This document shows positions 2,462 through 24,498 of a DNA stretch of 24,634 nucleotides, piece after piece (the first letter of the stretch is position 1; the number at the start of each line of letters is the position of its first letter). The notes beneath the pieces are model-generated. The model was not told the origin of the DNA, did no database searches, and worked only from the letters and a program-made list of their open reading frames with translations. Both the position numbers and the translations under genes were made by a program. Location: positions 1-24,634 of IMG/VR virus record IMGVR_UViG_3300007539_000208. One strand, 5' to 3'. Source of the stretch: a virus.

Positions 2462-4342
2462 CTATGTAAACCTAGCGTCAGTTAATGATATACCTTGTTT
2501 CCCGAAACTTTCTGATAGTGTTTCAGCGATAAATGTTCCAAGTTCCTCTTGTTGTACCAATGAACCTTGAACTACTATTTCAATATTTTGCTGTGGAGCC
2601 TGTCTTTCTACCTGGTTGGGAGCCGTTGTGTCTTCAACCAAGAAGTCATTTGTATTTTCAGTTGGAGCCGCAGATCCACCTCCACCACCGCCAGATTCCT
2701 TACTGCTTATTGAAGCTCCCAGCGCTCCACCAAAAGCAGCTAATGCAGCACCAGCCGCAATCAACGGTGCAGAAAGAGCCTGGTAACCTGGCAAGAAAGC
2801 ATAAGCCGCACCCTCTAGAATAAATCTTGTACCAAGGGCAACAGCTTGATCGGCAATAGCTTTTAATAAGCTTTTTCCAAATGCTTCTAAAGCGTTTTCA
2901 CCTTCAACTAAAGCTTTTCCAAATTCAGAAAATGCTTGACCAGCACCAGTTGCAATACCTTGTCTTAAGCTGTTTGCAGCCTCTTTAGAGAATTTTTTAA
3001 TTCTTTCATTAACTTCCAATATTTTCTTTTGTGAATTATCAATCCTAGTACTAATTCCTGAAAATACAGTATCAAATACAGCACCAAGACCTAATAAGCT
3101 TTGCTTTGCTACTTCCGTTTGTTGTGATTGTATTTGGTTTGCAGCTATTGCGTTTTGACTAATAATAGCTTGCTGCTCAGTAAAGTAATTTCTTAGATCT
3201 TCATTTTTTTGGTTCAAATTATTTGTTAAATCTGTCTCAGTAACACCTTTAAAAAAACCATCTTTGTTACTCTCTATAGCAAATTGCTTGATTCTTTCAG
3301 TAGCTAAATCAAATGCAGCACCTACGTTTTTGCCAACTAAATTTGCTGTTTTGACTGCTAGGTTTATTACTGGCTGGAAAAAATCCAGAATACCGTTAGC
3401 AATATCAACGAAAAAATTTCCAATAGCTGATGCTATGCGCGTACCTACATTAAAGACTATTTCAAAAGGTCTTATGACGTTTTCAATAACAGCTTTATTA
3501 AAATTTAATAACGGCTTTATTAAATCATCAAATACATTAAAGTTTTGTCTAAAATTATTAACTGTTTTGATTGAATCTTGAAATGTTGAGTTTAGAGCCT
3601 TTATACCTTTTAAAACAATTGGATTTTTTGTAATTATAAAACCAATTTCTTCTAATAAATCTCCAAAAGTATTAGAAAGCTGTTGGGTAGAACCACTAAA
3701 TGTTAATACGTCTTTTTGTGCAGCACCACCAAACTTTTGCTGTATTGCTGTTAATGCATTTGTAAAAGTCTTGGTATTATCTTCTGCTTTTTTTATTGAT
3801 AGACCATACCTGGAAAATGTACCAACCTCACCAGCAGCAGCTTTACCAACTAATAATGCAGCAGTGTTAAGATCTATCTTTAATGCTGCGGCTAAATCCA
3901 ATGTAGCAGCAGTTGCATCTTTTAGTTGTTGCTTGCTTAAGTTACCAAGCGACTGAATTAATCCCTGCGTTCTTAATATAGCCTCGTCACCAAACCTTGT
4001 TACTTGCTGTAATGAACTTGCATAAGCTTGTAAATCCCTACTAGCTTGTTCTGAAAATTTACCTGTAATTTGCAATGCTGTATTAAGTTGATTTATTGCA
4101 TCTTCTTGTTCCTGGGCAGCTCTTATTGATGCTCTAAATGTTAATGCACCAGCTATTGTTGATATAGCAGATGCAATTTTAGTTGCAGATTTTATAAGGT
4201 TTCCAGTTGATTTTGCAAAGGAATTTGAAAAATTTTTAGCAGCTTTTAGACCAGCTCCCCTTGCGTCTTTTTCTATTTTATTAAAAGCGCTTTTTGTGTT
4301 GCCAGTCTCTAAGTCAATTTGAATTATAATGTTATCTGCCAT
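2462..4342 (-). CDS. Tail tape measure protein
   Basis: 626 aa, the longest gene here, directly after the frameshifted tail-chaperone pair, as in siphoviruses. The N-terminal half is alpha-helical, rich in Ala, Gln and Lys, with segments typical of tape measures (FGDEAILRTQGLIQSLG and FGDLLEEIG). A strongly hydrophobic Ala/Gly stretch lies near residues 503-545, followed by a six-Gly linker and a short acidic tail. The protein would set tail length and enter the host envelope on DNA injection. Using roughly 0.15 nm per residue, a tail of about 95 nm is expected (inference). ATG at 4342 is preceded by AAAAGG and overlaps the end of the upstream T frame by 11 nt, implying coupled translation. 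Confidence 0.88.
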   Translation of the reverse strand: MADNIIIQIDLETGNTKSAFNKIEKDARGAGLKAAKNFSNSFAKSTGNLIKSATKIASAISTIAGALTFRASIRAAQEQEDAINQLNTALQITGKFSEQASRDLQAYASSLQQVTRFGDEAILRTQGLIQSLGNLSKQQLKDATAATLDLAAALKIDLNTAALLVGKAAAGEVGTFSRYGLSIKKAEDNTKTFTNALTAIQQKFGGAAQKDVLTFSGSTQQLSNTFGDLLEEIGFIITKNPIVLKGIKALNSTFQDSIKTVNNFRQNFNVFDDLIKPLLNFNKAVIENVIRPFEIVFNVGTRIASAIGNFFVDIANGILDFFQPVINLAVKTANLVGKNVGAAFDLATERIKQFAIESNKDGFFKGVTETDLTNNLNQKNEDLRNYFTEQQAIISQNAIAANQIQSQQTEVAKQSLLGLGAVFDTVFSGISTRIDNSQKKILEVNERIKKFSKEAANSLRQGIATGAGQAFSEFGKALVEGENALEAFGKSLLKAIADQAVALGTRFILEGAAYAFLPGYQALSAPLIAAGAALAAFGGALGASISSKESGGGGGGSAAPTENTNDFLVEDTTAPNQVERQAPQQNIEIVVQGSLVQQEELGTFIAETLSESFGKQGISLTDARFT

Positions 4343-4658
4343 CTTTGCCTTTTAAAACATCGGCTATATTGCCGCCAAATATCTTATTCAAATCATCTGT
4401 TTTAACAGCTCTTTTTTCCATTTCTTTTTGCGGTGTTGACTCTTTAATTATAGCTCTATGTATTTTTTCTTGATTCTCTCTTTTAGCGTGAGGATAAACA
4501 TGTAGCTGTAACTGACTCAATCTTTCCTTAGCCTTTGCCCTAATCATGTTTTCAACTAAAAAATTGTAATCATTATATTCTAACTCTAAAACTTCATGAT
4601 ATTTGTAGCTGTAATAATTCATAAATTCAGCAATCAATATAGTTTTAGAGTCTATTAC
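4332..4658 (-). CDS. Tail assembly chaperone, T segment made by -1 frameshift (G-T fusion)
   Basis: This frame has no good start: the only candidate near its beginning is TTG at 4637 with no Shine-Dalgarno sequence. It stays open up to the slippery site at the end of the preceding gene. Slipping by -1 on A AAA AAG (4658-4664) joins the 79-aa G protein to 108 residues beginning VIDSKTIL, giving a G-T protein of about 187 aa. The segment is charged and helical (FLVENMIRAKAKERLSQLQ; C-terminal FGGNIADVLKGKDGR). In lambda-like phages the G and GT proteins chaperone the tape measure during tail assembly, and GT is made at low level. Position between major tail protein and tape measure agrees. The fusion is inferred from sequence. 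Confidence 0.82.
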   Translation of the reverse strand, partial: VIDSKTILIAEFMNYYSYKYHEVLELEYNDYNFLVENMIRAKAKERLSQLQLHVYPHAKRENQEKIHRAIIKESTPQKEMEKRAVKTDDLNKIFGGNIADVLKGKDGR

Positions 4659-4664
4659 TTTTTT
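4583..4664 (-). promoter_or_regulatory. Programmed -1 ribosomal frameshift signal
   Basis: The minus strand reads GAT ACA AAA AAG TAA, placing the classic heptamer A AAA AAG in frame (4658-4664) directly before the G stop. Five to six nt downstream starts an 11-bp perfect stem: ACTCTAAAACT (4651-4641) pairs with AGTTTTAGAGT (4593-4583), extendable by one G-U pair, with a 47-nt loop. The loop itself contains GCTG/CAGC, allowing a nested stem. Heptamer, spacer and stem are what efficient bacterial -1 sites use. Confidence 0.85.
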
Positions 4665-4894
4665 GTATCTATTAACTCTTTTAAAATTGCTTCTAAGTGG
4701 TGCATTTCTAATTTATCACATACCTCACGGTCTAATCCTAGCTCCACAATAAAGTCGCATATAAGCTTAACTTTATTCTCTTCCTTTTCAAATCCTTCAT
4801 TGTAAACTTGCACTTGCTTTACTGTTGGATATCCAATTCTGTGAAGTTCACCGTTAAATTTAATTTCAAGCTCTCTAGTTCTAAAATCTAGCAT
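4655..4894 (-). CDS. Tail assembly chaperone G
   Basis: 79 aa from ATG at 4894, which has GGGAG about 8 nt upstream. The earlier in-frame ATG at 4909 has no Shine-Dalgarno sequence, so it is less likely. The protein is a small, acidic, mostly helical product (beginning MLDFRTRELEIKFNG) lying between major tail protein and tape measure, the usual place for the siphovirus tail chaperone. Its final codons (ACA AAA AAG TAA) carry the frameshift site that extends a fraction of product into the T frame. It is expected to bind the tape measure and keep it soluble while tube subunits are recruited. Confidence 0.78.
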   Translation of the reverse strand: MLDFRTRELEIKFNGELHRIGYPTVKQVQVYNEGFEKEENKVKLICDFIVELGLDREVCDKLEMHHLEAILKELIDTKK

Positions 4895-4916
4895 TTGTCT
4901 TACTCCCATAAGATAA

Positions 4917-4937: not shown

Positions 4938-5834
4938 TTATAATAATGAATGATCGCCTCTAGCAAATATATCTACTGTACTTGGCTTTGTTGAGTCTTT
5001 TAAAGCAATAAAGCTAAACTCTGCAGCTTGTACTTCACTACCAGCATAATTAATGCTGTTCATGTTTGGAGTGGTTTTCCAGATTACAATATCAGCACTC
5101 CTGTTTGATAAAGGAAGTCTAATTGGATGACCAACTAACATTCCAGCATAATCAAAAGATGATTGGTAAAGTTTAGAAGTTCCATAACCAACAGCATCAC
5201 CCTCTTTTGCTCCGTATCCTTCACCAATTAATGAAGCCCATCTTGAGCTGTTCATTTCAACAAGTGTTAAATCACAAGAAACGGAAGCACCCTTCATGAT
5301 TCTATCTAAAACGATGTCACCAGTTTGATCCGATAAGATATCTTCAAGAGACTGTTCAGTAGAAACTGAACCACCACCCTGGGCGATTGCACCAAGTTTA
5401 CCACCAAAACCAGCGCTATTTACAGTTAATGAAATAGAACCAGCATTGCTGAAATCCTCATCTGTGATTTCTCCAAGAAATTTATTTTCAATTTCTGCGA
5501 CACCTTCAGTTAGAGTTACGTTAAAATCACCTGCAGCCTCAATAGCTGTTTTAGCCAGAGCAGCAATAGCAGAAGCAGTATCACCAGCAGTATAGACAAC
5601 TTGAATACCAGTAGCGCCAGAAACCATTGGATCTGTACCAGTACCAGCATCAAGCCATACATAAAATTTTTCTTCTTCATAGTTCTCATTGATTCCATTT
5701 AAGGTGAAGTAAAGATCTTCTTGGTCTCCTGCTGTGTCGTTTGCAAAAGTAACAGATCTACATTCTCTACCGCCAAAGTACCAATCCATTGCTTCTAAAA
5801 CTTGCTCAGTTCTTTGTGTTGTTGTACAAGCCAT
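4938..5834 (-). CDS. Major tail (tube) protein
   Basis: 298 aa, in the canonical place: after two neck proteins and before the frameshifted chaperone and tape measure. N-terminal and C-terminal parts (SFDYAGMLVGHPIRLPL; VQAAEFSFIALKDS) look like a beta-rich tube fold. Between about residues 40 and 150 there is a separate domain (FYVWLDAGTGTDPMVSG, GIQVVYTAGDTASAIAALA) resembling a module found repeated in other phage and bacterial surface proteins; I infer it decorates the outside of the tube. Its ribosome-binding leader (AATAACAAAGGAT at 5840-5852) is shared with capsid and scaffold genes, consistent with high expression, and a stem-loop follows the stop. Confidence 0.8.
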   Translation of the reverse strand: MACTTTQRTEQVLEAMDWYFGGRECRSVTFANDTAGDQEDLYFTLNGINENYEEEKFYVWLDAGTGTDPMVSGATGIQVVYTAGDTASAIAALAKTAIEAAGDFNVTLTEGVAEIENKFLGEITDEDFSNAGSISLTVNSAGFGGKLGAIAQGGGSVSTEQSLEDILSDQTGDIVLDRIMKGASVSCDLTLVEMNSSRWASLIGEGYGAKEGDAVGYGTSKLYQSSFDYAGMLVGHPIRLPLSNRSADIVIWKTTPNMNSINYAGSEVQAAEFSFIALKDSTKPSTVDIFARGDHSLL

Positions 5835-7027: not shown

Positions 7028-8680
7028 TTAATGTGAGTAAGCAACTTTTACTTTATCACCTACAGCCATTGGCTCTGTGCCATCAGAAGCAAATGATCCA
7101 ATAAAAGTAATTCTTGTAACACCACCAACAGTGCTAAGTTGATAATCTTCACCCTCAAATCCTGCCAATCTACCAACATAAAATCTTACAGATTTTACAA
7201 TGGCTTCATTTTGAAGATCAATATATCCGTTAGCAATATCTGTTGAAGTTAAAACAAAATTTTCTTTTTCAAAGCTAACAGCTTCTAGTGCAGAAATTCT
7301 CGCATCCAAAGCAGCTTCAGCATCTTCTCTTTCAGTAGATCCAAGAATTGCATCAATTCTAGCTTTTTCAACGTCAATATTAGCTTGTAAAGTATTATCT
7401 GCATTGATTCTATCTCTTTCTTCGTTTTCGATATTGGTTTGAAGAGTATCATCTGCAGCTTCTCTATCTGCAATTTCTTGAGCTAGTGCAGCATCGTTAG
7501 AAAGAACATATCCTGCAAAAGCTTGGTCATTAGTAGTATCTATGCTGTTTATCAGTGTAACAACTTCAGCGAATGTATCTAAATCAGCACTGGCACCTGA
7601 TAAAATGGCATCAATTCTAGCTTTTTCAACGTCGATATTATCTTGTAATTGACCGTCTGCATTTTGTCTTGCAATAGACTCTTCAAGGATAGATTGCTTA
7701 ACACCAGCAAGAGTAAACTCGCCTCTAATTTCCAGGCTGTACTCTTTGTTGTAAACAGATGAATTAAAGCCTATTTTATTAACTAATATTTTAACTGTAT
7801 CTGCATCTGCGACACTATTTGTTCCCAAAACAGCAGTTGAAATTACTTCTGTATCTTCATTCAAACCAATGCTTGAACCAGCTACACTGGTAACAACCAT
7901 TTGAACTCTTGGAAGATCAGGGTAAACAGAAGCGTCTGGCTCTTGACCCATGTAGAATAAGGTTTTTACGCCTCTTTCAAATCCATTGGATGGAACATAA
8001 ACAATTCTTGATCTATACCAAGAACCAGCATCTTGACCATCACCAAGAGGTACAGTGTAGTATGCTAAATGAAATGAGTCATTGCTTGGGCTATCAACAG
8101 TTGCGACTGTGTATAATCTATCCCATTGACCAACAGTAACAGGGTTTTCTTGCCCATTGTGAAAATACCAGTTGATTTTATCTGGTGACCCAGCACTCTT
8201 ATAGTACCAACCATCGCGACCAGTTGGATCTTCAACAGCAGCCGTACCATCAGCATAAACCCCTGCGTTATCTTCAAATAAAACATCTTCAGCGCCTTCT
8301 AAAGATGTAATCTGTGATTGAACATTAGAAATAGCAGCCTGTCTGTCACTAATTTCTTGTGTGATTTGATCTTGCAATCCATCATCTGCATCTTCTCTAT
8401 CACTTGCTTCTTGAGCAATTTCAGATTGCAGTTGAGAAATAGCAGCTTGTAAATCATCACCAACTTGTGATTCTAAAGATGTGATTCTTGTATCAAGACC
8501 ACTTTCAGCAACAAGTGCTCTTGTTTCCTCGTCAGATATCAATCCCTCAAGATGTGCTATAACATCCTGGGTACTTCCATCTTCCATCAAACGTCTAAGC
8601 GTTTGGTCATTTTGCAGTAATAGCTTTAAGCCATCAATTGCATCATTTTCAATGTACTTTTTCTTGATTTGATTAGCCAT
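7028..8680 (-). CDS. Trimeric coiled-coil fibre protein encoded in head module
   Basis: 550 aa with a strong GGAGG Shine-Dalgarno sequence. Residues 1-35 (MANQIKKKYIENDAIDGLKL... NDQTLRRL) match an attachment motif I recall at the start of many phage fibre proteins. Roughly residues 65-130 and 325-470 are coiled coil with heptad-like repeats (ASDREDADDGLQDQI, IADREAADDTLQTNI, RDRINADNTLQANI). NIDVEKARIDAIL occurs twice, reflecting an exact 26-bp DNA repeat at 7350-7375 and 7608-7633. Between the coils is a globular region with Trp/Tyr-rich carbohydrate-binding-like sequence (GWYYKSAGSPDKINWYFHN). A compact beta domain ends the protein (VGDKVKVAYSH). The gene lies among head and neck genes rather than after the tape measure, so it may be a head or neck fibre; this is inference. 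Confidence 0.75.
   Translation of the reverse strand: MANQIKKKYIENDAIDGLKLLLQNDQTLRRLMEDGSTQDVIAHLEGLISDEETRALVAESGLDTRITSLESQVGDDLQAAISQLQSEIAQEASDREDADDGLQDQITQEISDRQAAISNVQSQITSLEGAEDVLFEDNAGVYADGTAAVEDPTGRDGWYYKSAGSPDKINWYFHNGQENPVTVGQWDRLYTVATVDSPSNDSFHLAYYTVPLGDGQDAGSWYRSRIVYVPSNGFERGVKTLFYMGQEPDASVYPDLPRVQMVVTSVAGSSIGLNEDTEVISTAVLGTNSVADADTVKILVNKIGFNSSVYNKEYSLEIRGEFTLAGVKQSILEESIARQNADGQLQDNIDVEKARIDAILSGASADLDTFAEVVTLINSIDTTNDQAFAGYVLSNDAALAQEIADREAADDTLQTNIENEERDRINADNTLQANIDVEKARIDAILGSTEREDAEAALDARISALEAVSFEKENFVLTSTDIANGYIDLQNEAIVKSVRFYVGRLAGFEGEDYQLSTVGGVTRITFIGSFASDGTEPMAVGDKVKVAYSH
7350..7375. repeat. 26-bp exact direct repeat inside fibre gene (copy 1; copy 2 at 7608-7633)
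   Basis: The two copies encode the repeated coiled-coil segment EKARIDAI and are identical at DNA level, unlike the diverged remainder of the coil repeats. This suggests recent duplication or gene conversion within the fibre gene. Confidence 0.9.
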
Positions 8681-9120: not shown

Positions 9121-9300
9121 TTAAATTCTATTACCATAATCAGCAAGACTTGAATTTTCTTGTCTGGTTCCCAAATCAGTTGATATGTCACCCTCTAGTC
9201 TTTCACCAAATTGTATCACACCATCATTTGTTGCTTCTATAATAACATCATCATTATCTAATTTAATTAGACCACTTATGAAATCAAAAATAAACCTCAT
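9121..9300 (-). CDS. Small acidic head-module protein (59 aa)
   Basis: An open frame of 59 aa fills the gap between two structural genes: MRFIFDFISGLIKLDN... ending SSLADYGNRI. It overlaps the previous stop by ATGA and is preceded by GGTGAG. It ends 11 nt before the next start, so it is packed as a genuine gene in the operon. No motif is recognised. An acidic, beta-prone centre (DDVIIEATNDGVIQFGERLE) suggests a small virion or assembly protein. Confidence 0.65.
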   Translation of the reverse strand: MRFIFDFISGLIKLDNDDVIIEATNDGVIQFGERLEGDISTDLGTRQENSSLADYGNRI

Positions 9301-9587
9301 GTTCTCACCAAACTAATTAAATTTTTTTTCAAGTCACTTTGAAAAGTGGCTGTCACCGTTGCTACTAAGCTGCCAGATGTTCCACCTAAATAGTATCTGT
9401 GTATCTCTGTGACATTATCTGGGTAGCTAAATGTAATGGCGTCATATTCAATCCCGGCTATTATCGAACCCTGGTAAAGATCAACTTTATTGGAAATTGC
9501 AACCTCGACGGCTGTTCCATTGGATCTGGTAGATGATTCAACAAATTTGTTTAATTCTCTACCTTCAATTGTCTTTGGTATTGCCAT
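9297..9587 (-). CDS. Small head-module structural protein (96 aa)
   Basis: 96 aa. The start (MAIPKTIEGRELNKFVESST) lies inside the upstream gene, overlapping it by 23 nt, and the stop overlaps the next gene by ATGA. The sequence is beta-rich (VDLYQGSIIAGIEYDAITFSY; GTSGSLVATVTATFQ). It lies among head and fibre genes, suggesting a small virion component such as a fibre adaptor or decoration protein. No family recognised. Confidence 0.6.
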   Translation of the reverse strand: MAIPKTIEGRELNKFVESSTRSNGTAVEVAISNKVDLYQGSIIAGIEYDAITFSYPDNVTEIHRYYLGGTSGSLVATVTATFQSDLKKNLISLVRT

Positions 9588-15757: not shown

Positions 15758-15997
15758 ATGACAAGAATAGAAAAATTCAATTCCCTTTTTACGCACGCTT
15801 GGTATAAAAACCAATTAAGTAAATTAAAACAAAAAGATATAGATTTTTGTTTAAATTTTATAAAAGAAAATAACGAACTATGCAAAGTTGATTTTTGGAA
15901 CAAACTTAAAATGATGCGATGTGACTCTTTAAAAAAATCTGATATTTCAAGATTTAATATTTGTATAGAATTGCTAGATGTTTCAAGAGACATTTAA
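15758..15997 (+). CDS. Lone plus-strand basic protein of unknown function (79 aa)
   Basis: 79 aa, Lys/Asn/Phe-rich, helical, with no recognised motif (MTRIEKFNSLFTHAWYKNQL; then a repeat-like LNFIKENNELCKVDFWNKL). It is the only plus-strand gene between the late leftward operon and the ParB/glycosyltransferase operon, and has its own extended -10 promoter and a GCGAGGT leader 4 nt from the ATG. Its stop overlaps the stop of the convergent glycosyltransferase. Such an isolated gene with a private promoter looks like a moron or a small regulator. A DNA- or RNA-binding role is possible given its charge but not shown. Confidence 0.75.
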   Translation: MTRIEKFNSLFTHAWYKNQLSKLKQKDIDFCLNFIKENNELCKVDFWNKLKMMRCDSLKKSDISRFNICIELLDVSRDI

Positions 15998-16857
15998 ACC
16001 TTCTTGTATTTTTCATTTAAAATTTTAGGGTATGTAAAATTTTTTTCTATTGAATGATGTAGCCTTCTGTTATCTTTGTTTCCCATATCCTTAACCACTA
16101 TTGATGATGGGTGAAATATTACAGAATAAAAACTTTTTACATAAGTTCCTAGTTCTAGGTATATTGTTGTTAGACCGCCATCGTTAGATTGAGTAACTGT
16201 TTGCTCTAAAGATATTCCAGATGTTGTGAAATAAATATCACCCCTTGATGCATTAAGTGTGTAACAGTTAACATCTTCATTTATTAGACCATAAAAACTA
16301 AAAGGCTTATCTGTTCTACAGAAAAAACTATTCATACATTTTCTATCTAACATTTCTGTTGTTCCAAATTTGTTTCCATAACCACCAATAAAGTCACCAC
16401 CCTGTGACATTGCTATGCATTTAATATCTGTTTGTTTTAAAAATTCTAAATAAATAGATATTACTTTATTTAGGTTTTTTATTTGCTTTGGCTTATAGAT
16501 ACCATTAAAATTAGACCGATACTGAAAAGTAGTATAGTCATCATCTAGAACTAAAAAGTAATCATATCCTAGTTCTCTAGCTATACTCCAGCACATATTC
16601 CTGGCATAAACAACAGCCTTCATGTTTTTAGTATTATCTGCCGTGTCTGTAATTTTCAAAGCATCATTTTTATTAAATTTATAGATAATAATGTCTTTAT
16701 AATTTTTTTTGTATTCATTAAAAGTTTTATCTTGGTCATCCAGTACAATAACAATATCACCATTATAGTTAGATTTATTTAATGCATTTATAGTTTTAAC
16801 ATTTTCTGGTCTATTATTACTCAATATAAAAACTGCAAATTTATTAATTTGACTCAT
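15994..16857 (-). CDS. TAGT-type (TET-associated) DNA glycosyltransferase candidate
   Basis: 287 aa from ATG at 16857, chosen because AGAGG precedes it; the TTG at 16872 is weaker. The N-terminal Rossmann-like part is FAVFILSNNRPENVKTINAL. Then come VVYARNMCWSIARELGYDYF (residues 82-101), the metal/sugar-nucleotide acidic motif LDDDYTTFQYR (104-114), AMSQGGDFIGG (149-159), FFCRTD (178-183) and NEDVN (193-197). This is the layout I know for phage TAGT proteins, GT-A-like glycosyltransferases proposed by Iyer, Aravind and colleagues to glycosylate hydroxylated bases made by TET/JBP enzymes. It overlaps the ParB-like gene by 14 nt and forms one operon with it. No TET/JBP gene is seen in the window, so substrate is inferred; glycosylation of another target is possible. 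Confidence 0.78.
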   Translation of the reverse strand: MSQINKFAVFILSNNRPENVKTINALNKSNYNGDIVIVLDDQDKTFNEYKKNYKDIIIYKFNKNDALKITDTADNTKNMKAVVYARNMCWSIARELGYDYFLVLDDDYTTFQYRSNFNGIYKPKQIKNLNKVISIYLEFLKQTDIKCIAMSQGGDFIGGYGNKFGTTEMLDRKCMNSFFCRTDKPFSFYGLINEDVNCYTLNASRGDIYFTTSGISLEQTVTQSNDGGLTTIYLELGTYVKSFYSVIFHPSSIVVKDMGNKDNRRLHHSIEKNFTYPKILNEKYKKV

Positions 16858-17608
16858 TGTATGCCTCTGCAAATTTTTCTGTCATTTTAACAAATCCAAG
16901 CTCTATTGCCTTATTGAAATCAATTATAATTAAAGCACTCTCTTCCATTAATTGCTGCATTTTTTCATTAGAATGAGCGTAATATTCTGCAGCCATTTTG
17001 TAATTGAATTTTATATGCCTAGCAGCGGCAAATCTAAGATATACCTTTTCATCTTCTGGCAATTCTGATTTATCTATGTTGTTAATTAATGAGTAATATT
17101 TGTCTGTATCGTATAAAGATTTTATGCTTGGCTTTTCTTCTGTTGGTTCATATATTGGTGACTCTACCTTTCTTGTATACAACTCATCACTATCTTTATT
17201 TTCATCTATTTCTGGAAGTTCAAAATTTTCAATACCAAGCATATCAATATCAACAATTTTAATATTTTCCATTTCTGTGTATACGGAATGCAAGTCTAAT
17301 TCTGCCCATCGAGCAATTTCATTATCTGAAATTAAATATGCATACTCTTGCGCTTCTGATTCGAAGTCTTGCTTTATAACTGGTACTTGTTTCATTCCCA
17401 AATTTATTGCAGCTTCTAATCTGCCATGACCGACAACTAAAAAGCCTGTGCGATTAGATACTATCAACGGGTTTCTAAAACCTTGGTATTTAATTAGCTT
17501 TTCTAGTCTTTTAATCTGTTCGATTGAATGTCTGTTTGCGTTTTTTGGGTTTGGAACAATAGAATCAATATCGACTAACTCGATATTTTTAGATTTTATA
17601 TCTGACAT
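16844..17608 (-). CDS. ParB-like (ParB/Srx nuclease-domain) protein with conserved phage C-terminus
   Basis: 254 aa. Residues 10-110 are a ParB N-terminal domain: ELVDIDSIVPNPKNANRHS, LIKYQGFRNPLIV, the signature GHGRLEAAINLG (60-71), and YAYLISDNEIA. There is no C-terminal helix-turn-helix as in plasmid ParB and no methyltransferase fusion. Instead the C-terminal half (EKVYLRFAAARHIKF; MAAEYYAHSNEKMQQLMEES; ALIIIDFNKAIELGFVKM) resembles a domain I recall in phage-encoded ParB-like proteins. The ATG has AAAAGG upstream. It shares an operon, promoter and operator-like site with the glycosyltransferase. ParB/Srx proteins often accompany DNA-modification genes in phages, so a role in targeting or processing modified DNA is inferred. 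Confidence 0.8.
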   Translation of the reverse strand: MSDIKSKNIELVDIDSIVPNPKNANRHSIEQIKRLEKLIKYQGFRNPLIVSNRTGFLVVGHGRLEAAINLGMKQVPVIKQDFESEAQEYAYLISDNEIARWAELDLHSVYTEMENIKIVDIDMLGIENFELPEIDENKDSDELYTRKVESPIYEPTEEKPSIKSLYDTDKYYSLINNIDKSELPEDEKVYLRFAAARHIKFNYKMAAEYYAHSNEKMQQLMEESALIIIDFNKAIELGFVKMTEKFAEAYNESN

Positions 17609-20367: not shown

Positions 20368-20538
20368 TTATTTATCGCCATAATATTTTAAAAAATAATC
20401 ATCTAATAACCTAGCTTCACTATTAATAGTTCTAAGGATAAATTCAGCATCATTTAATTTTGATTTAGCTTCTTTCAACTTTTCTTTTAAGTCTTGATTC
20501 TCAAGATACAATTGTTCGCATTTATCTCGATAGCTCAT
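20368..20538 (-). CDS. Short 'FYGD'-like coiled-coil protein, paralogue C (56 aa)
   Basis: 56 aa. The ATG overlaps the methyltransferase stop (ATGA), so translation is coupled. Sequence MSYRDKCEQLYLENQDLKEK, then LKEAKSKLNDAEFILR, and the end DDYFLKYYGDK. The 'LKEA.s.l..aef...' coil and the YYGDK end mirror paralogue A's KYKGDK. After its stop the same frame reads N K A N E stop, matching the end of paralogue B, so it seems truncated by a stop mutation or recombination. Unknown function. Confidence 0.65.
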   Translation of the reverse strand: MSYRDKCEQLYLENQDLKEKLKEAKSKLNDAEFILRTINSEARLLDDYFLKYYGDK

Positions 20539-21368
20539 TTTATAACTCGCTTTAAAATATGTGCTATAACGTCAACTGTGAATCCGTTTCCTAGCATTTT
20601 ATATCTCTGTGTATTTGAAACATGATTTGTATAATTATCTGGAACAGTTTGTAATCGTTCGCACTCAATTGGTGTTAGTTTCCTTACTCCATTAACTCCC
20701 ATATAGTAAGGATCACTCCTACCCATTTTATAATACCTTGCCGTCAAACAGGGGCATATATCCTCATCTGTTTTAGGAGAAAACCTTTTATACCAAGTAG
20801 GATTTCTTTTAAACCCCTCTAATAATTTATCACTTAAATAGTATTTTCTATCTACGTATTTTTGCAAAATATTTCCTAATCTTAGTAACTCATCTTTCGG
20901 TAAATCAACTTCCCAGTTACACCAATAAAGCCTAACTCTATTTTGAGCACTAACCAATGCGCTATTTATCTTAATTGGTTCAACACCTAAATGCTCAGAT
21001 ATTACATCCTGGTATTCTTGTTTCATTCTGACATTTTCTAATAAAAAATACTTTGGCTTTAATTCTTTTAATAGGCGCACAAATTCAAAAAATAGCGCTG
21101 ATCTTTCATCATTAAAATTCAATTGCTTTCCAGCAAAACTAAATCCTTGACATGGAGAACCAGCAACCAAAAGATCAATTTCTGGTAAATCACTTGCTCT
21201 TATTTGTGTTACATCTCCCAATTGAATTGTGTTGGGATAATTAGCTTGCGTAACCTTAATTGCATATTTATCAATCTCACTAGCATAGTATTTATAGTTT
21301 TTTATGCCCAATTTATTTATTGCAATTTGGGCGCAACTCATTCCGTCAAATAAAGATAGTATATTCAT
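20535..21368 (-). CDS. C5-cytosine DNA methyltransferase
   Basis: 277 aa from ATG at 21368, just after the upstream stop; GTG at 21380 would add four residues. All core motifs are present: I (LSLFDGMSCAQIA, residues 4-16), IV with catalytic Cys73 (GSPCQGFSFAG), VI (ENV, 111-113), VIII (QNRVRLYW, 142-149), IX (RKLTPIECERLQ, 229-240) and X (MLGNGFTVDV, 258-267). The target-recognition region is short (about 150-228), as in many phage enzymes. It methylates cytosine C5 using S-adenosylmethionine; target site unknown. Role could be protection from host restriction or the first step of a hypermodification pathway with the TAGT enzyme. It is in an operon with a nuclease-like gene 0.45 kb upstream. 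Confidence 0.92.
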   Translation of the reverse strand: MNILSLFDGMSCAQIAINKLGIKNYKYYASEIDKYAIKVTQANYPNTIQLGDVTQIRASDLPEIDLLVAGSPCQGFSFAGKQLNFNDERSALFFEFVRLLKELKPKYFLLENVRMKQEYQDVISEHLGVEPIKINSALVSAQNRVRLYWCNWEVDLPKDELLRLGNILQKYVDRKYYLSDKLLEGFKRNPTWYKRFSPKTDEDICPCLTARYYKMGRSDPYYMGVNGVRKLTPIECERLQTVPDNYTNHVSNTQRYKMLGNGFTVDVIAHILKRVIK

Positions 21369-21369
21369 T

Positions 21370-21555
21370 TTATAATTCACTCAATTTATCATTATTAATA
21401 TTAATCCGATCAATCATTCTTAATGCTGACTCATAAGCATCTATTTTGCCCTGAGAATACTCTTTAATTGTTATTGGCATATCTATCTTGATATAACTTG
21501 TTTCCATTTCCAAAGCTGCCTGTAGCATGATTTTAATTCTTTCTAACTCTCTCAT
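21370..21555 (-). CDS. Hypothetical protein (61 aa)
   Basis: 61 aa. ATG overlaps the previous stop (TAATG) and has GGGGGAA upstream. Helical, charged: MRELERIKIMLQAALEMETS, then KIDAYESALRMIDRI. It ends 1 nt before the methyltransferase ATG. Unknown function; possibly a small partner of the flanking enzymes, inferred only from coupling. Confidence 0.6.
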   Translation of the reverse strand: MRELERIKIMLQAALEMETSYIKIDMPITIKEYSQGKIDAYESALRMIDRININNDKLSEL

Positions 21556-22593: not shown

Positions 22594-22799
22594 CAGTCTC
22601 GATAACTTGCTTCCGTCGCAATGGTCATCAAGGCGTTTTGTAGTGCTTGCATCTACCAGTGCTTGCTCACACTAAGGATAAACACTAACCCCTCTGGTAG
22701 ATTTAAATATTTATTAAAATGAGCATGGATTGTAAAATTAAAAAAACAATATAATTTTTATATAGTATTTATATAATTTATATATTTTCACTTGAACTA

Positions 22800-22808
22800 T
22801 GTTATAAT
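22800..22808 (+). promoter_or_regulatory. Extended -10 promoter of rightward early operon
   Basis: TGTTATAAT, a perfect extended -10, lies 23 nt before the GCGAGGT leader (22832-22838) of the first rightward gene. No consensus -35 at 17 nt. Identical to the element before the lone plus-strand gene at 15732. Confidence 0.65.
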
Positions 22809-22842
22809 ATATAGTTCTAAAACAATATTTTGCGAGGTTTCA

Positions 22843-23538
22843 ATGTCTTACTACAGGGCACAAAAAGATTTTAACCATATACAAGACCTTAACGCTTTAG
22901 ATCAATTAGCTAGCTCCAATTATAACGCTAAAGAAAAACAGTTGAGTATGATGAAAAACTTACTAGATGAGCTTAGTGGCTTAATTGGTGGCTATAATAG
23001 CTCTAAAATTGACGCTATAGCCATTAGGCTGCAAGAGCAAGGGTATGGCTGCAAACAATTAGAAAGAGCCTGTAAAATCATTCCAGAGCGTTTAGACAGG
23101 TTTCCCTCATTTAAAGATTTAAAGACCATTTTAAGCGAATTTAAAGAAAAGAAAGAAGTTGAATTGATTGATCAACAAGCAATAAAAGACAGAGAAAGAT
23201 TCAATGGCATTAAAAACCTTTTTATGTCTAAATGCACAAAAGACCAGCTAGACTCCTATGTTAAATGGTGGCTAATTAATGTTTATGAATTAACGACTGA
23301 TCAAGTTCAAGCATTTGTTAGCCCGAATCTTTTTGAAATGCCAGCTCTATTTGACTGGTATGATAATTACTGCGAATGGAATCTTGATAGAATAAAAAAT
23401 GTTGGATTAAAGAAATTACAATATCTGTTGAAAGAACAAGAAAAGAATTATATGAATAATGAATACGATAAAAAAATAGAGCCAATGTGGATTAATAAAA
23501 ACACAGAATGGAAAAAATATTGCGAGGTATCAAAATGA
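22843..23538 (+). CDS. Early replication/recombination-region protein of unknown function
   Basis: 231 aa from ATG at 22843, picked because GCGAGGT lies 4 nt upstream; upstream in-frame codons fall inside the promoter. Helical throughout. ERACKIIPERLDRFPSFKDLKTIL (positions about 72-95, split by Pro) resembles the 'FPs...lk..l' part of small helicase-loader or replisome-organiser proteins, but no ATPase or zinc motif is present. The C-terminal half has Trp-rich segments (LDSYVKWWLINVYEL; FDWYDNYCEWNLDRI). First gene of an operon with an annealing protein and SSB, so a DNA-replication accessory role is plausible but unproven. Confidence 0.6.
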   Translation: MSYYRAQKDFNHIQDLNALDQLASSNYNAKEKQLSMMKNLLDELSGLIGGYNSSKIDAIAIRLQEQGYGCKQLERACKIIPERLDRFPSFKDLKTILSEFKEKKEVELIDQQAIKDRERFNGIKNLFMSKCTKDQLDSYVKWWLINVYELTTDQVQAFVSPNLFEMPALFDWYDNYCEWNLDRIKNVGLKKLQYLLKEQEKNYMNNEYDKKIEPMWINKNTEWKKYCEVSK

Positions 23539-24071
23539 GTGAAAAATCAGTCTTCCAAATTTTATCATCAATTAATGTAGAAAAAGACGTCAAAGAAAAA
23601 AATGGCATGCGCTATTTACCATGGGCAGCTGCTATTAAGTATTTATTGAATTATTTTCCCGATGCAAATTGGGAGCATAGAGAATGGGATGGAATACCAT
23701 ACCTGAAAACTGGTTCAGGTTGTTTTGTTGAGGTATCTGTTATCATAGGCGGTATCACAAGAAAGCAATTGCATCCCATTCTTGATTATAGAAACCAGCC
23801 GATTAAAGAGCCAAATGCCTTTCAAGTTAACACATCAATTCAAAGAGCATTGGCTAAAGCTATCGCACTGCATGGTCTTGGTCTTTACATATTTGACGGT
23901 GAGGATTTGCCACCAAACGAGAAAGAAGCTATTGAGCTAGCAAGAGTCGAGCTAGCTGATCTATTACAAGAGGCTGGTAAGTTTTCGCCACAAGCAAAGC
24001 AAGCACTACTTAAAATGAACTATCAAGATATTCAGAACAAAATTGCTGAATATAGAAACAAAGGGGAGTAA
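23535..24071 (+). CDS. Sak/DUF1071-like single-strand annealing protein
   Basis: 178 aa from ATG at 23535, which has GCGAGGT (23522-23528) 6 nt upstream and overlaps the previous stop. Key parts: FQILSSINVEKDVKEKNGMR, YLPWAAAIKYLLNYFPDANW, then AFQVNTSIQRALAKAIALHG and LGLYIFDGEDLP. The pattern 'ngl.YLsWa.A......P.a.w ... m.v.t.i.RcL.KaiAl.GLGLYi..GEDLP' is that of the DUF1071 family, placed with Rad52-like (Sak) annealing proteins. It pairs complementary single strands during phage recombination and normally acts with the SSB encoded just downstream. C-terminal residues form a charged helix. Confidence 0.8.
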   Translation: MSEKSVFQILSSINVEKDVKEKNGMRYLPWAAAIKYLLNYFPDANWEHREWDGIPYLKTGSGCFVEVSVIIGGITRKQLHPILDYRNQPIKEPNAFQVNTSIQRALAKAIALHGLGLYIFDGEDLPPNEKEAIELARVELADLLQEAGKFSPQAKQALLKMNYQDIQNKIAEYRNKGE

Positions 24072-24072
24072 A

Positions 24073-24498
24073 ATGATTAACAAAGTACTATTGATTGGAA
24101 ACATGACAAAAGACGTTGAATTGAAAACATTGCCAACAGGTTCATCGGTAGCTAACTTTGGTGTTGCTACAAACGAAACATGGAACGATAAAGCAAGTGG
24201 AGAAAAACAAGTTAAAACTGAATATCACAACATTGTATTATTCGGAAAACAAGCAGAAAACCTATCCAAATACACTAGCAAAGGCTCCAAACTTTTTATC
24301 GAGGGTAAACTTCAAACAAGATCGTGGGAAGATAAAGATGGGAACAAGAGATACACTACAGAAATAATTGCTGCAAATGTTCAATACTTATCAACTAATA
24401 AAGACGTAAACAAAGCATTACACCAAGCTGATGATTCACAATCTGAATACCAAGTGAAAACAGATGTAAATTATGCTTCTGATGAGATTCCATTTTAA
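24073..24498 (+). CDS. ssb: Single-stranded DNA-binding protein
   Basis: 141 aa from ATG at 24073, 1 nt after the annealing-protein stop, with GGGGAG just upstream. OB-fold hallmarks: MINKVLLIGNMTKDVELKTL, TEYHNIVLFGKQAENLSKYT, GSKLFIEGKLQTRSWEDKDG. The acidic C-terminal tip DEIPF matches the bacterial SSB tail (DDIPF) that recruits replication partners. Length and layout are normal. It coats single strands in phage replication and recombination. Confidence 0.95.
   Translation: MINKVLLIGNMTKDVELKTLPTGSSVANFGVATNETWNDKASGEKQVKTEYHNIVLFGKQAENLSKYTSKGSKLFIEGKLQTRSWEDKDGNKRYTTEIIAANVQYLSTNKDVNKALHQADDSQSEYQVKTDVNYASDEIPF

Follow-up and report, generated by a model that had tools for sequence, protein, structure and literature searches.

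The question raised by this locus is whether a short run of adenines, followed by an RNA stem and placed at the end of a small gene, moves some of the ribosomes into another frame, and which protein would be gained in this way. The DNA analysed, called the window in the following, is the whole stretch of 24,634 nucleotides of the IMG/VR record IMGVR_UViG_3300007539_000208; all the features of the element are on its minus strand. An earlier note, made from the letters of the window, had proposed a -1 frameshift element of the type found in tail chaperone genes, and this proposal is supported by the synteny, by the fold predicted for the first protein, by the conservation of the shift site, by an excess of stem at synonymous sites, and by compensatory changes. 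The element very likely directs programmed -1 ribosomal frameshifting in a pair of tail assembly chaperone genes, G and GT, of an uncultured tailed phage: a few ribosomes would slip back one base, and one gene would probably yield two helper proteins of tail assembly, one short and one long.

The G/GT frameshift is a textbook case. In lambda, a few ribosomes add T to G, with G binding the tape measure and T the tail tube subunit, and the G-T frameshift is conserved in long-tailed phages (PMC5009743). Regarding the window, the gene order is tail protein, G, T in the -1 frame and tape measure, as in lambda and in the relatives described below; two overlapping open reading frames thus lie between the tail protein, named by position, and the tape measure gene. 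The product of 4938..5834 (minus strand) was assigned as a major tail tube-type protein by position and conservation; its PHROGs matches are weak only (Ig domain protein, tail sheath), so that its name is a deduced one. G (4655..4894, minus strand) is the short tail assembly chaperone, with 79 amino acids: its frame is open from 4909, its conserved MLDF start is at 4894, with a GGGAG about 8 nt upstream of the ATG, and it ends with ...DTKK and TAA. T (4332..4658, minus strand) is the -1 frame extension, open for 108 codons, as the earlier note had described, from the GTA at 4658; the GT fusion would read ...DTKK-VIDSKTILIAEF..., and the tape measure gene (2462..4342, minus strand; phrog_27166, E 4.5e-11) overlaps the T stop with its start. 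T of the window is 59% identical over its full length to that of the relative L083, and its model is all-helical.

As for the identity of G, neither G nor T of the window has a significant match in Pfam or PHROGs, the families of tail assembly chaperones (TAC) included; the one match to a curated TAC family came from a relative (phrog_8595, E 0.053), with none for the G of the window. The AlphaFold2 model of G, built from 21 sequences, has a pLDDT of 91.8, and four structures stand out in its comparison: 3fgx (Z 6.1), 5ir0 (Z 5.8), 3klu (Z 5.3) and 2ob9 (Z 4.8), the next being at 2.8. By its structure title 2ob9 is HK97 gp13, a known tail chaperone, and 3klu is YqbN, which we take to be another; the predicted fold of G is like theirs, with moderate Z values (4.8-6.1), whereas sequence identity is only 9-10%. 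Among viral predicted structures, many matches of the G model are named tail assembly chaperone, none of them significant by E-value, and Foldseek alone gave nothing significant for G against the PDB. Hence, G is taken as a tail assembly chaperone by its predicted fold and its position, and not by sequence family.

Regarding the anatomy of the element, the G-like frame (4909..4655) terminates with ATA GAT ACA AAA AAG TAA TAG, and the slippery heptamer A AAA AAG (4664-4658) is in frame with the stop directly 3' of it, as had been claimed. The double zero-frame stop TAA TAG (4652..4657) makes up a 6-nt spacer, and the putative stimulatory stem follows, with its 5' arm at 4641..4652 and its 3' arm at 4582..4593, for 11 perfect base pairs and one G-U. 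The perfect part is ACTCTAAAACT (4651-4641), the reverse complement of AGTTTTAGAGT (4593-4583), and it encloses a loop of 47 nt, so that the stem noted earlier holds in all its dimensions. RNA folding adds to the 11 bp the G-U pair and an inner extension of 5 bp; the hairpin has an energy of -19.6 kcal/mol, with z = -4.05 compared to dinucleotide shuffles. The window therefore has the X XXY YYZ heptamer, a spacer within the 5-9 nt usual for -1 shift sites (PMC5009743) and a stable stem downstream. A-rich heptamers in frame are found ten more times in this AT-rich window, and the heptamer by itself is not rare; it is therefore the combination of the parts that counts. Perfect inverted repeats of at least 11 bp with a loop of at most 60 nt occur twice in the whole 24.6-kb window, where shuffles give an expectation of 0.73; the other one (9260-9323) is rich in A/T, covers the place where a minus-strand frame of 59 codons starts, and may be due to chance.

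Two smaller elements accompany the site. A Shine-Dalgarno (SD)-like AAAGAG (4676..4681, minus strand) is located 11 nt upstream of the heptamer, and most members of the A AAA AAG group have AAGGAG or AAAGAG 10-11 nt upstream (AAGGAG in L083, L084, L125 and L126); the stretch is part of K-E codons. The nested stem suggested earlier for GCTG/CAGC within the loop does form as a hairpin in the RNA fold, but it has no covariation beyond shuffles, and no consistent inner stem was found in the group of relatives with the A AAA AAC site; the analysis lends no support to the pseudoknot named earlier as the alternative.

Relatives of this locus were gathered from IMG/VR via the tail protein, the terminase and T; DNA and protein searches found none among the 50,697 records of cultured phages, nor among bacterial and archaeal species genomes, where the single match (L097) was a flagellin and was rejected. 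The set consists of 23 non-redundant loci, the window and 22 relatives, and every one of them keeps a shift site, either A-rich or GGGAAAG, where G ends, T being in the -1 frame. The site is A6G in the window, L083, L110, L112, L117, L125 and L126; A7G in L084, which belongs to the same A AAA AAG group; G GGA AAG in L116; A7C, hence A AAA AAC, in L085, L086, L091, L092, L094 and L096; A8C in L120, which also counts as A AAA AAC; and exactly A9 in the last seven, L087, L089, L090, L093, L095, L107 and L118. Relatives lacking the heptamer had been named in advance as the finding that would speak against frameshifting, and the outcome was favourable: the homologous shift site is kept in 22 of 22, with A9 instead in seven. 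In L085 and L086, a TGA in the -1 frame is immediately 5' of AAA AAA, and because of it T can be reached only at the shift site. A further record, L002, was dropped from the comparison because it is too distant; it may have a shift site, C CCA AAA (2971-2977), and its T starts with IAEFMNYY as well. In L083, a reading frame that looks like an HNH endonuclease (7340-7834), so named from the appearance of its sequence and absent from the window, separates the tape measure gene from the tail gene that follows.

T might instead be a separate protein, made from an internal start or by re-initiation after the G stop. There is a TTG at 4637, which corrects the earlier statement that the -1 frame is devoid of a start, and ATG is found near the same place in L083, L084 and L116; no start is conserved at this place, though, since L125 and L126 have ATA and no start is shared by the A7C and A9 loci, which is the part of that statement that stands. 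The shift site, in turn, is kept everywhere and would not be needed by a separate T, so that this explanation is very unlikely compared to the frameshift.

As for the stem, selection was examined by keeping the T protein and resampling its synonymous codons from the usage of each locus, with comparison of the energy between the two arms; the p-values are single ones, with no correction for multiple tests. The stem exceeds the synonymous expectation (p<0.05) in 12 of the 16 loci whose site is A6-A8 or GGGAAAG, the window included, whose stem energy was reached in 0.4% of the draws (p 0.004). Within the sites ending in G, the values were 0.009 for L084, 0.007 for L116, 0.004 for both L125 and L126, and 0.03 for L112; within the A7C sites, they were 0.001 for L085, L091 and L094, 0.03 for L086, 0.008 for L092, and 0.02 for L096. 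The stem was not significant in L083 (8 bp, p 0.16) and L120 (p 0.11), it was marginal in L110 (p 0.066), and L117 has merely a small and different hairpin at this position. In most loci the stem is positioned about 4-8 nt after the shift site. Among the A9 loci, one of the seven (L090) is beyond the synonymous expectation and the other six have no stem; the difference between the two sets has a p of 0.002 by a rank test and of 0.02 by a Fisher test, both of which ignore relatedness.

The covariation of the two arms, proposed earlier as a check, is strong in the A7C group and weak in the A AAA AAG group to which the window belongs. A single register (columns i + j = 80) is common to all six A7C loci, and the combinations found at one place include GAG/CUC, GAU/AUC, GGU/GCC, GGA/UCC and GAA/UUC; both sides have changed in 4 of the 14 pairs, 91.7% of the cells are paired compared to 82.5% in shuffles, and the covariation score is 0.376 against 0.180, with none of 500 shuffles as high. 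When this stem is slid out of register, pairing falls to 34-62%, and RNAalifold recovers it unprompted. Among the A AAA AAG loci, the place of the stem is maintained but its register slides a few bases from locus to locus, for which reason the covariation pair by pair is weak; a single common register was tried for this group, and it was weak as well. The idea that a weaker shift site is matched by a stronger stem (A AAA AAC compared to A AAA AAG) was not supported (p 0.18). Taken with the codon resampling, these data indicate that an RNA hairpin is conserved by selection in the relatives; in the open-access papers searched, no report was found of a stimulatory stem of tail chaperones with comparative evidence of selection.

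These results bear on two other readings of the stem. In the first, the heptamer alone would shift the ribosomes, as in the lambda G-T pair, and the stem would be due to chance or be a by-product of the coding sequence; it is favoured by the absence of a significant stem at the same place in L083, L117, L110 and L120, by the lambda-type G GGA AAG of L116, and by the ease with which A/T stems arise in AT-rich DNA. The synonymous excess of the twelve loci, the compensatory changes of the A7C group and the position of the stem, about 4-8 nt after the site in most loci, argue against it and make it unlikely. In the second, the stem would serve RNA processing, termination or the control of tape measure translation, as could be expected from a stable hairpin located between genes for structural proteins; yet it is not followed by a U run, it keeps a fixed position with respect to the shift site, it tends to be missing at A9 sites, and it has no match in Rfam, so that this role appears most improbable. 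A stem that assists the frameshift is the reading retained.

Regarding the A9 sites, nine A's is the run length that makes the bacterial RNA polymerase slip with efficiency, and many genomes show selection against runs of this length (PMC1088944); in Thermus thermophilus, the dnaX gene uses transcriptional slippage on A9 in place of a ribosomal shift (PMC1088944, PMC5009743). The A9 relatives are like Thermus dnaX in having exactly nine A's, mostly with no stem downstream. In the eight A9 records searched on both strands (L088, a near-copy of L087, being the eighth), the only A9 is that of the G/T junction, apart from one A10 that L093 has within its tape measure gene. Over 154 kb of loci of both types, a Markov model predicts 11.4 runs of at least nine A or T, and six were seen, all at the G/T site. 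The A9 is read in two codon phases, xxA AAA AAA AAT and xAA AAA AAA AGT/ATT, and therefore what is kept is the length of the run and not one codon phase. The A10 of L093 (6662-6671) is inside an open tape measure frame of 695 codons, and it may be a second slippage site or the result of chance.

A frame change made by the RNA polymerase on the A run, and not by the ribosome, could also be invoked for the window, on account of the known slippage length (PMC1088944) found in seven relatives, six of them with no stem, and of the near absence of other runs of at least nine A's in the A9 records. The window, though, has A6 at the site, which is below the slippage length, and no run of at least nine A's on either strand; moreover, it has a downstream stem, of no evident use to a slipping polymerase. 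For the window, this explanation is hardly tenable and the ribosomal frameshift is preferred; its A6 also sets it apart from Thermus dnaX. As for the A9 phages, A AAA AAA is a ribosomal shift site too, and because of this transcriptional slippage at their sites may be regarded as a good hypothesis and nothing stronger.

The two types of site occur in close relatives. L090 (A9) and L091 (A7C with a stem) have tail proteins that are 97% identical and DNA that is 87% identical over 4.9 kb, up to the point where the tail protein ends, and then identity is 37% for G, 46% for T and 36% for the beginning of the tape measure protein. The same is found for L095 and L096 (tail proteins 97%; G 36%, T 45%, tape measure start 25%) and for L087 and L092 (tail proteins 90%; G 31%, T 41%, tape measure start 30%), with DNA identity resuming downstream of the tape measure; in the three pairs, the divergence begins where the tail protein gene stops, near 4897. 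On the tree of G and T, the type of shift site has changed three times by parsimony, and at least twice as forced by well-supported branches. On these comparisons, G, GT and the tape measure are exchanged as one cassette with the type of frameshift inside it, which is why either type can be found in phages whose tail proteins are 97% identical; the exchange of the whole cassette fits with G binding the tape measure. Somewhat short of a favoured reading, one lineage of uncultured phages may use two interchangeable means for this frame change, ribosomal shifting on A6-A7 with a stem and polymerase slippage on A9 with none, swapped together with the G-GT-tape measure cassette. If so, the A9 relatives would extend to phage tails the lesson of dnaX, one outcome reached by two mechanisms; close genomes with both types allow the mechanisms to be compared side by side, and the alternation of A9 and stem among relatives is the part worth following.

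Compared to known systems, the locus resembles lambda G/GT in the gene order, in the slip near the end of G and in the G GGA AAG site of one relative, L116; unlike lambda, there is no homology detectable in Pfam or PHROGs, the shift site is in most cases an A run adjoining the stop, and the downstream stem is under selection. The dnaX gene of Escherichia coli has A AAA AAG, a simple stem-loop and an SD sequence 10 nt 5' of the shift site (PMC5009743), and the window is like it in the first two and has, about 10 nt upstream, an SD-like sequence as a candidate counterpart of the third; they differ because the dnaX shift leads to a short product and the present one would lead to a long product, and they are not related by sequence, given that the Rfam search found no match. 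The window element would add to the known G/GT pairs and to the stem-stimulated frameshifting of the dnaX type.

In the proposed mechanism, most ribosomes would read A AAA AAG, terminate at TAA and release G. The stem, 6 nt downstream, would resist unwinding at the mRNA entrance while the shift codons are decoded; the two tRNA-Lys would then re-pair one base back, on AAA AAA, and the shifted ribosomes would continue in the -1 frame through T, giving GT. By analogy with lambda, G would coat the tape measure protein and T would recruit the tail tube protein, which is the reason why the ratio of G to GT would matter.

Finally, other genes of the window deserve mention. A TET-associated glycosyltransferase (TAGT) adjoins a ParB-domain protein (15994-17608, minus strand), and a C5 cytosine methylase is encoded at 20535-21380 (minus strand); the presence of the glycosyltransferase and the methylase suggests that the phage DNA may contain a glycosylated modified cytosine. 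The genes of 22792-24498 are on the plus strand, opposite to the late genes, and include those for a Sak single-strand annealing protein and an SSB.
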